Positions 131 through 15,498 of a stretch of 36,590 bases of DNA are shown piece after piece. The position numbers and the translations under genes are program-made. The notes below the pieces were generated by a model that saw only the letters and a list, made by a program, of their open reading frames with translations, searched no databases and was not told the origin of the DNA. Every line of letters starts with the position of its first letter. Position 1 is the first letter of the stretch. The DNA is from Muribaculaceae bacterium (lineage in GTDB: Bacteria; Bacteroidota; Bacteroidia; Bacteroidales; Muribaculaceae): the NCBI GenBank assembly GCA_017536215.1, contig JAFXHY010000170.1, forward strand, positions 1 through 36,590. The letters run 5' to 3'.

Positions 131-283
131 AATATACGAATAAGCGAGCAAGAAATATCAAGCTTGCTTGAATATTTTTTACCGCGAGCGAAAGTATATT
201 GGAGATTTATCTCAACAATACGAATAAGCGAGCAAGAAATATCAAGTTTACTTGAATATTTTTTACAGCGTATATTGGAGTCT
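131..283. repeat. Tandem pair of structured interspersed repeats (copies 1 and 2)
   Basis: Two copies of a unit about 70-85 bp long start at about 131 and 217. Both contain ATACGAATAAGCGAGCAAG followed by a hairpin. Copy 1 pairs 153-162 (AAATATCAAG) with 167-177 (CTTGAATATTT), leaving A171 unpaired. Copy 2 pairs 237-246 with 251-261, leaving A255 unpaired, with loop TTTA. A T-run follows each hairpin. Copy 1 then has GCGAGCGAAAG and TATATTGGAG; copy 2 lacks the 8 bases AGCGAAAG. A related pair lies at 15222-15357. The pair sits past the 3' end of the ClC gene. This is a non-coding element of unknown role. Confidence 0.85.
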
Positions 284-8524: not shown

Positions 8525-9493
8525 TTAGTCCATCACATGACCGGCATTCTCCGAGGCATTGACCATATTTGCATATTCTTCCGGGGTGAGATCTTGAAAA
8601 TAATAATTCACCGGATTTTGTGGGACACCTTTAAGTCTAACCTCATAATGTAGATGTGAGCCGGTAGATTTACCGGTATTTCCAATTTCTCCTATGACAT
8701 CTCCTCGTTTCACCTTCTGTCCCACTACTACATTTATCTTGCTTAGGTGGGCAAAGCGGGTAGTATAGCTGTATCCATGATTTATATCAATACAATTGCC
8801 ATAAGCATTGTGCCATCCGGCTTTCGTTACAGTCCCGTCTCCTGTAGCATAAACAGGAGTCCCTATCGGTGCCGCGAAATCCATCCCGTCATGATGCTTT
8901 GATGTGCCATATATAGGATCGACGCGCCAGCCGTAGCCCGATGCCATTTGTGTCATATCCTCTTCCGATACCGGTTGTATTGCCGGGATATGAGATAAAC
9001 GGTCGATATTCTGATTTATAACCTCTGCAAGTCGGTCAAATGATTGAGATTGAACATACACCTGTCGCTCAAGTAGAGCTAATTTGTTGGTCACCTCTTG
9101 CAATTTTTCTTTATCATTGAGATTATTGAAAGTTTCAGTGCTAAGACGTGGAAGTCCGCTATATCTTTGACGCGCGGTCAATGGGTCGGTTTGCATAATT
9201 ACGCGATAAAGATTATTATCGCGTTCCGACAGATTGTCCATCACGGAGATTGCAGTTATCAATCTTGAGTTAAGTTCTTCAATTTGATGTTGCAATGACT
9301 CATTCTCTTTGCGTAGTTGCTTCTCTTTGGGCAAATCTATACAGATATACAACGATATTAAAATCCCTGCACTGATACCTATCCCTTCAAGAAGATATTT
9401 GGTCCATGCCCATATACGTTGACCTCGAGAAGGGTAGACCCTCTCATAGCTCTCAGTAGTTGGGTTATATCTGTAATATATTTTTTTGCTCAT
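8525..9493 (-). CDS. Membrane-anchored M23 (LytM-type) metallopeptidase
   Basis: This 322-residue protein would act on peptidoglycan in the periplasm. It has a cytoplasmic N-terminus (1-30), one membrane segment (about 33-53), a coiled coil (about 56-90 and 125-165) and a C-terminal M23 domain (about 185-298). The catalytic set looks complete: zinc ligands H201, D205 (HHDGMDF) and H282, with H249 (AHL) and H280 (HLHYE). This predicts an active enzyme rather than an EnvC-like activator. It is divergent from alaS and cotranscribed with the MerR gene. The anchored, coiled-coil layout resembles MepM-type endopeptidases. Confidence 0.92.
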   Translation of the reverse strand: MSKKIYYRYNPTTESYERVYPSRGQRIWAWTKYLLEGIGISAGILISLYICIDLPKEKQLRKENESLQHQIEELNSRLITAISVMDNLSERDNNLYRVIMQTDPLTARQRYSGLPRLSTETFNNLNDKEKLQEVTNKLALLERQVYVQSQSFDRLAEVINQNIDRLSHIPAIQPVSEEDMTQMASGYGWRVDPIYGTSKHHDGMDFAAPIGTPVYATGDGTVTKAGWHNAYGNCIDINHGYSYTTRFAHLSKINVVVGQKVKRGDVIGEIGNTGKSTGSHLHYEVRLKGVPQNPVNYYFQDLTPEEYANMVNASENAGHVMD

Positions 9494-14098: not shown

Positions 14099-15217
14099 CT
14101 ATTTTAGGCGTTGGTAATACACCGGTTGATAATCTGCCATTAAAGTAGGGTAGAACACCTTTGCTAAATCTTTGAGTATGACGTCGGGATTCATTATACC
14201 TGATTCATAAAAGTCATTACCTCCACCTATAGTACTTAGGCGATTATTGTTGTATACTTTCCCCTCGGCAAACACTTTGGTGTCTGTAAATCGCGGTGCC
14301 ATTTCGGCTAATTGTGTCATCGTTGTTGCCTGTCCCGGATTTATCCACACATCAGCTTTGCTCATTAGTAGATATGCTTCTTCAATGTCTATTATTTTTG
14401 ATGCATTTCCGGTATTTTCTTTATAGATATAATCGCCACCTGCGTCGGCAATCAATTTCGACATGTAATTATTGGTAGATGGCAACCACCAATTATCATT
14501 ATATGGAGCATTAATCATTACTTTGGGCCGCAATTCATTATTACTAAAACTTGCTTTCACCGCATTATATCTTTGTTCGATTTCATTGAATAATGCAATC
14601 GCCTCATTCCGTTTCCCAATTATCTCTCCTATCGCTATTACCCACTCTGCCTTTCCTAATGGAGATTCTTCAAGATATTCTCCGATATACACATATGGAA
14701 TATTTAGCTCATTTAGTTTCTCTTCCAATGGGCTTGGTCCGTTCACGCCGTATAGCAACACAACATCCGGATTGAGCATCACCATCTTTTCGTAGTCAAA
14801 ATAATCGTTATATCCTACGTCGACTACTTTTCCATTACGATTCTTTATCGTTTCATTTGTAATAAATTCAATGCCCGAAACCCCTACAACACGATCAACA
14901 GCGCCAAGGCTCTCCAACATTGCCACGAATGTCGACGACATTGCTACGATTCTTTGTGCGGGCTTGTCAATGCGGTAACACATACTGACACTATCAGCTC
15001 CCTGCCAGGGTTTTTTTATTATCAATCCGCTTACAGAGTCTTGGCTGCTACATATCGTAAACCCTTGGGCATATTGAGGTGTAAATTCCACGCGGTCAAA
15101 CGCAAAATTCTTTGTATTGCTATTACACGACACAAGCAATTGTAACATCAATACTATTAATGTTATGATAACATGACTGCCATTGAAGCTTTTGATATGT
15201 TGAAGCTTTGATTTCAT
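14099..15217 (-). CDS. Binding lipoprotein of a BtuF/FepB-like ABC importer
   Basis: A 372-residue periplasm-facing lipoprotein. The signal peptide has lipobox LLVSC (C31). Residues about 80-360 form a helical-backbone metal-chelate binding domain. It starts at AQRIVAMSSTFVAMLESLGAVDRVVGVSG, followed by MLNPDVVLLYG, and ends with NPDVILKDLAKVFYP. It captures the ligand for the adjacent permease and ATPase. The family covers cobalamin, haem and ferric siderophores; I cannot choose among them. No cobalamin-riboswitch core was seen upstream. The start codon lies only a few bases from a structured repeat (15222-15357), so the leader or promoter of this operon must involve or lie beyond that repeat. 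Confidence 0.9.
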   Translation of the reverse strand: MKSKLQHIKSFNGSHVIITLIVLMLQLLVSCNSNTKNFAFDRVEFTPQYAQGFTICSSQDSVSGLIIKKPWQGADSVSMCYRIDKPAQRIVAMSSTFVAMLESLGAVDRVVGVSGIEFITNETIKNRNGKVVDVGYNDYFDYEKMVMLNPDVVLLYGVNGPSPLEEKLNELNIPYVYIGEYLEESPLGKAEWVIAIGEIIGKRNEAIALFNEIEQRYNAVKASFSNNELRPKVMINAPYNDNWWLPSTNNYMSKLIADAGGDYIYKENTGNASKIIDIEEAYLLMSKADVWINPGQATTMTQLAEMAPRFTDTKVFAEGKVYNNNRLSTIGGGNDFYESGIMNPDVILKDLAKVFYPTLMADYQPVYYQRLK

Positions 15218-15221
15218 ACCT

Positions 15222-15357
15222 CAAATATACGAATAAACGAGCAAAAACATGAAATTTATTTCAATGTTTTTCCGGCGAGCGAAAGAATATTGAAGATTTA
15301 CCTTAAATATACACATACTAATGAGCGAATTAAATGAAGTTTACTTATATTTTTTAA
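15222..15357. repeat. Tandem pair of structured interspersed repeats (copies 3 and 4)
   Basis: Copy 3 (about 15222-15302) keeps AATATACGAATAAACGAGCAA and GGCGAGCGAAAG. Its hairpin pairs AAAACATGAAA (15244-15254) with TTTC/ATGTTTT (15259-15270), leaving A15263 unpaired and TTTA as loop. Copy 4 (about 15305-15357) is more degenerate: AAATGAAG (15332-15339), loop TTTA, CTTATATTT (15344-15352). Three stem positions differ from copies 1 and 2 with pairing kept. The pair abuts the start of the ABC binding-protein gene. The minus-strand TATATTTG at 15229-15222 matches a -7 box but is too close to the start codon to serve it. Confidence 0.8.
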
Positions 15358-15498
15358 TCACATTAGTTGAAAAATAGATTGAACTCATACTAATCTGTCG
15401 ACATATCTTAGTCTGTTATAGTGTGTTACGTTAAATTATAAACCCTGTAAAAATGAAAGACTGACTCTCTGTAATAATTAGCCGATGTCTAATCTAAC

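Follow-up and report, generated by a model that had tools for sequence, protein, structure and literature searches.

A structured hairpin repeat at -7 promoter boxes of gut Bacteroidales, probably a mobile element of the REP/MITE-like kind

Introduction

The attC sites of integrons conserve structure over sequence, with an outer 7-bp stem, an unpaired spacer and a bulged base. The repeat described here has all of these, but there are no cassettes and no link to an integron integrase has been shown, and it also has a tandem G.A stem and a GAWTAA/GNRA loop, which are not attC features. The palindromic elements of Rickettsia are mobile palindromes, and one viral copy of our repeat likewise lies in frame inside a gene; unlike those elements, nearly all copies stand at promoters, and to our knowledge the sequences are unrelated. 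REP sequences and REPINs, with their RAYT transposases, are short extragenic imperfect palindromes that are multicopy, have complementary stem subtypes, occur in tandem and are apparently moved in trans. The repeat shares these properties; however, a REP measures 20-40 bp and our unit is a multi-stem structure of 84 bp, which has no GTAG or GT(A/G)G head, is found in several element-rich genomes without a Y1 transposase, targets promoter -7 boxes and is flanked by direct repeats. It resembles MITEs, such as BrickBuilt of P. gingivalis (PMC4596501), in being short and non-coding, in its tandem amplification and in target duplication, but its ends are not conventional transposase terminal inverted repeats: inverted outer arms are present, and they vary by copy and pair with the local box.

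The window analyzed here, 36,590 nucleotides, is the whole of a contig (C132) of a 1.80-Mb draft genome that is 69% complete and consists of 216 contigs.

Results

A preliminary description of this DNA had reported a hairpin repeat in four copies that form two tandem pairs. The repeat is real and more extensive than first described. The plus strand of the window (the strand of the described fold) carries a full 84-bp unit at 129-212 (copy 1; 89.8 bits, E 6e-17 with the covariance model R2), a tandem unit at 213-296 whose 3' P2 strand is short by 8 nt (copy 2; 71.8 bits, E 7e-8), and a full unit of the other stem subtype at 15222-15305 (copy 3; 103.5 bits). These three copies stand, while the fourth (15306-15377), still in tandem register, has decayed to a remnant that scores 22.8 bits (E 3.96 genome-wide) and whose hairpin no longer folds like those of the other copies. 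Units are spaced 84 bp apart, close to the 85 bp or so expected. The three double changes that separate copies 1 and 2 from copy 3 (T:A to C:G, C:G to G:C and G:C to A:T) are all as originally given, and the sequence confirms an unpaired A at each of 171, 255 and 15263.

Blind folding and an alignment of 145 copies show the unit of about 84 bp to consist of one long imperfect hairpin and, 3' of it, a small second one. The long hairpin is made up of a 7-bp outer stem (P1), a GAWTAA/GNRA-like internal loop, a stem in which GCGAGC lies opposite GCGAGC with a tandem G.A mismatch (P2), and a stem with a bulged purine (P3). In copy 1, all on the plus strand, covariation places the P1 arms at 131-137 (AATATAC) and 194-200 (GTATATT), the alignment of copies places the P2 strands at 144-149 and 184-189 with the tandem G.A between them, sequence and covariation place P3 at 153-178 with the loop CTTG and the bulged A171, and covariation of the last helix places the second hairpin, GAGAT-TT-ATCTC, at 202-213. 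The hairpin recognized at first is P3, the core of this long hairpin, and P1 and P2 enclose it. The shared leader and tail noted beside it are present but are not separate parts, since they pair with each other in the outer stems (AATATAC/GTATATT and GCGAGC/GCGAGC); that the leader is at once a promoter box and the fold's outer arm went unnoticed in the preliminary description.

Covariation was examined by counting double-change cells. The 13 copies of the window's own genome gave 23 such cells compared with 7.7 in shuffles and 1-3 when the pairing partners were slid, and the 145 copies gave 471, a count that none of 500 shuffles reached, compared with 128 in shuffles and 30-101 with slid partners, an excess to be read with the relatedness among copies that remains in these shuffles and in the permutations below. 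The 145-copy alignment was fitted to the structure; a sequence-only alignment, A2, which was not, gave 99 double-change cells compared with 26, and from it RNAalifold, unaided, predicted P1 together with the larger part of P2 and the P3 core. By corrected mutual information, ranks 1, 2, 3, 5 and 6 were stem pairs, while rank 4 (columns 22 and 57) was a further pair that would extend P3. Over the 145 copies, 92.4% of the paired cells were paired, with double changes in 21 of the 24 pairs, and the stems thus vary with their pairing preserved.

Unpaired parts were among the most constant features. Of the 145 copies, 127 kept the tandem GA opposite GA and 140 had one bulged purine, A or G; the internal loop kept one GAATAA-like and one GNRA-like side, and the apical loop was CTTG or TTTA. 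The pairs that flank the tandem GA changed in compensation (GC to AU 27 times, CG to UA 12 times). The many copies, the covariation in four stems and the fixed mismatches support the selection on structure first suggested from the copies of the window. Complementary changes, high A+T and tandem copies would also be seen if template switching during replication kept matching the two arms of a decaying palindrome, with no selection on the fold; but such a process would mend the tandem G.A and the bulge as well, and we regard it as very unlikely.

The strand of the described fold, antisense to the adjacent gene, has more G.T than A.C pairs (94 versus 61, one-sided p 0.005, uncorrected for relatedness), and nearly all of the excess falls in hairpin 2. 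We rejected this asymmetry as a pointer to the folding strand, the excess being only modest. Tandem G.A pairs and GNRA-like loops suit RNA and DNA alike; single-stranded DNA is tentatively preferred as the folded molecule because the element is mobile, as described below.

The outer stem contains a promoter box. The -7 promoter consensus of Bacteroidota is TAnnTTTG (PMC7366714), and the 5' arm of P1, CAAAnnTAC, reads TAnnTTTG on the other strand, while the 3' arm is GTAnnTT. By sequence and this consensus, a box of the -7 type, TATATTTG, lies at 129-136 on the minus strand in copy 1, and its complement sits within the 5' arm of P1, so the 3' arm at 194-200 is complementary to the box. In copy 3 the box TATATTTG occupies 15222-15229 on the minus strand, 4 nt before the ATG (15217) of a Peripla_BP_2 gene (14099-15217, minus strand), beyond which FecCD and ABC ATPase genes follow. 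The nn of the box can be TA, GA, AA, GT, TT or others, and it agreed between the box and the opposite arm in 82 of the 114 copies, where 10,000 permutations gave a mean of 36 and at most 53. A permutation of whole arms within genomes gave the same result (1120 versus 887 +/- 22, counts in which chance hits to the motif are included and weaken the signal). Where a copy does not stand at a -7 box, it has arms of different sequence that are still paired, namely AAGCCAC/GTGGCTT in one copy (L263) and AACTTTTC/GAAAAGT and CAACTTTCC/GGAAAGT in viral copies.

The placement of the repeat at genes was strongly oriented. At 101 distinct chromosomal loci, all in draft genomes where copies at contig ends limit the flank analysis, the 5' flank carried a gene directed away from the element 53 times and one directed towards it twice; the remaining flanks had both frames open (26), neither (11) or were short (9). 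No orientation bias was found on the 3' flank (24 versus 21). The median distance to the ATG was 30 nt, and by eye the adjoining reading frames were gyrB/parE-like, miaB-like, dapB-like, radA-like, uvrB-like, rnpA-like and cysD-like. A position almost always at a gene's -7 box and in one orientation is what would be seen if the repeat had been retained to regulate promoters, as a structured RNA or a cis-acting element, and was not itself mobile, and the GAWTAA opposite a GNRA-like sequence, the tandem G.A and the CTTG/TTTA loop resemble RNA motifs, to which the modest G.T excess may be added. We nevertheless consider regulation of this kind unlikely as the explanation: the targets are unrelated housekeeping and transport genes, the same promoters in sister species lack the element, the outer arms vary freely as a protein operator would not allow, wobble pairs favor the strand that is antisense to the gene, some viral copies are found off promoters or within a reading frame, and there is no Rfam family (no match at the gathering threshold and only chance-level matches below it).

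Comparison of orthologous sites shows where copies are absent. The uvrB promoter is filled in one genome (L051) and empty in L183, L184 and L185, the cysD promoter is filled in L085 and empty in L178, L179 and L180, and a glycosyltransferase-like gene on contig C195 of the window's own genome has the element, while L149-L152 have an empty site. At L051 and C195 two direct -7 boxes surround the element, where the empty site has one. The dapB leader has an empty TTACAAATATATG in one species and an element of opposite orientation between two ACAAATATA in another (L171, L170), so the position seems to be governed by the sequence of the target and not by its function as a promoter. The nn was common to the box and its direct repeat in 66 of 87 copies, and the trailing repeat was locus-specific, matching the box at 7.11 of 8 positions compared with 6.57 +/- 0.05 for permuted boxes. 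The other 27 of 114 copies were unscorable, the trailing repeat being absent or diverged in some, and in two genomes (G097 and G110) it was always CAACGTTAC, a constancy that suggests a part of the element rather than a duplicated target. Because sister species have empty sites and locus-specific CAAAnnTA direct repeats flank the copies, we conclude that the element is mobile. The many copies, their patchy distribution, the empty orthologous sites and the target duplication, imperfect in part of the copies, thus agree with the REP-like or MITE-like nature proposed in the preliminary description. Some insertions, as at miaB, are shared by the orthologous promoters of sister species, so part of the distribution pattern is vertical.

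A REP element moved by a resident RAYT (a Y1 HUH transposase) would account for the bulged hairpin, the complementary stem subtypes, the extragenic position and the tandem pairs, in all of which REP families are alike (PMC3733652, PMC2817692), and the repeat is indeed an extragenic, multicopy, imperfect palindrome with subtypes. However, Y1_Tnp (PF01797) was absent from three element-rich genomes (G458, G521 and G537, with 51, 36 and 30 copies) and from the own draft, and it was present 4-6 times in the element-free congeners G001, G002 and G006. The palindrome foot is CAAAnnTAC...GTAnnTT with variable nn, in place of a GTAG or GT(A/G)G head, and target direct repeats flank the element. A resident RAYT, the partner suggested at first, is therefore highly improbable; PF01797 is rejected as the partner for the genomes tested, and neither another partner enzyme nor an autonomous copy of the element was identified.

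The outer 7-bp box with its conserved ...AC/GT... ends, the unpaired spacer and the extrahelical base recall attC, which raises the possibility that the repeat is an attC-like or IntDOT-like tyrosine recombinase site, the folded strand of which recombines at a GTAnnTTTGC core. The target also matches the core GTANNTTTGC, which we take to be that of CTnDOT attB; a literature search did not return this core. The boxes are CAAAnnTAC and GTAnnTT, not the RYYYAAC and GTTRRRY that accompany cassette genes and an integron integrase, the 84-bp tandem units contain no genes, there are no cassette genes between copies, and no specific integrase was identified. We doubt that the repeat is such a site.

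The repeat extends well beyond the window. The own genome, searched by BLAST and with covariance models built from 13 copies (R1) or, more broadly, from 45 copies (R2), had 17 copies with R1 (E <= 0.0013) and 16 with R2. Counts with R2 were 51 in G458, 50 in G288, 38 in G097, 36 in G518 and in G521, 33 in G110, 30 in G537 and 23 in G030, and the densest genome had 51 copies in 2 Mb. Seven viral contigs carried the repeat, one of them, of 122 kb, with 7 copies (R2). No copies were found with R1 in 7 genomes of the same genus. Matches were obtained in 15 of 149 sampled genomes of the family, the own included, and, in several families, in at least 15 of 393 genomes sampled across the order, a lower bound, few candidates having been scored per genome. 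The phylum-wide sample gave matches in the own genome only, again a lower bound and a weak absence with only about 10 candidates scored per genome. Named relatives with the repeat are Bacteroidales of the buffalo and goat gut (Muribaculaceae, Alistipes), and Xylanibacter had a leader-only match. A literature search found no description of the repeat family, subscription papers lying mostly outside it, and the family is apparently undescribed so far.

Three individual arrangements were also observed. On the viral contig IMGVR_UViG_3300037454_000334 (L311, about 9012-9094, minus strand), a copy is read in frame near the C-terminus of an ORF. The middle unit of a three-unit array (L047:1421-1509, G097) has a wholly different inner hairpin and the same outer arms as its neighbors. 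Three more weak matches with tandem spacing, of a diverged subtype, lie near a normal array (L062:2383-2657, G288:C1).

The sequence that precedes copy 1, at 1-128 of the window, has counterparts elsewhere. This stretch of about 130 bp is 96-100% identical in other genera and families (G536, G288 twice, G047 and G038), and relatives with 73-79% identity occur in three scaffolds labelled as gut phages and in a plasmid record of Phocaeicola massiliensis. In these other occurrences a -7 box upstream reads into the sequence. From sequence comparison it looks like a putative conserved small RNA gene without an Rfam family, and the box at 129-136 doubles as the conserved 3' end of this RNA-like sequence. 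Several draft contigs break where it starts, and the repeat begins where it ends. An interpretation of 1-130 as a transposon end was rejected, as relatives show a promoter on the other side. Two contigs of G288 (C17 and C12; L099 and L090) both open with this 130-bp sequence but continue into different versions of the repeat, and the small locus is thus multi-copy in that genome.

Discussion

We propose that the repeat is probably a mobile, non-coding, structured element of Bacteroidales, REP/MITE-like and moved in trans, with the -7 box as its target. As it works like an element of the REP/MITE type yet lacks what defines REP/RAYT systems, we would class it as a variant within that wider group.

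In the movement that we infer, new copies would enter at CAAAnnTA, which is the -7 box TAnnTTTG on the other strand, and the inserted element would end up between two direct copies of the box, the gene-proximal one then serving as -7 box and 5' arm of P1 at once. Local tandem duplication would then yield the arrays of 2-4 units. An enzyme supplied in trans may recognize the folded single strand, as happens with the hairpins of REPs and of integron attC sites. The arm complementary to the box, GTAnnTT, may either take part in target choice or be kept paired afterwards. A more specific scheme, in which we place little confidence, is a class of mobile hairpins whose 3' arm GTAnnTT acts as a guide by pairing with the melted -7 box, so that single-stranded insertion into promoters rebuilds the box from the element's own stem, with Bacteroidales viruses carrying the hairpins between hosts.

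If the proposal is true, a widespread unnamed repeat family rewires transcription start regions at dozens of genes per gut Bacteroidales genome, doubling the -7 box and replacing the upstream promoter DNA, with viruses as carriers. Mobility or maintenance would then depend on a folded strand that incorporates the host's own promoter box. Both the enzyme that reads this fold and the effect of the element on expression would become open to direct test.
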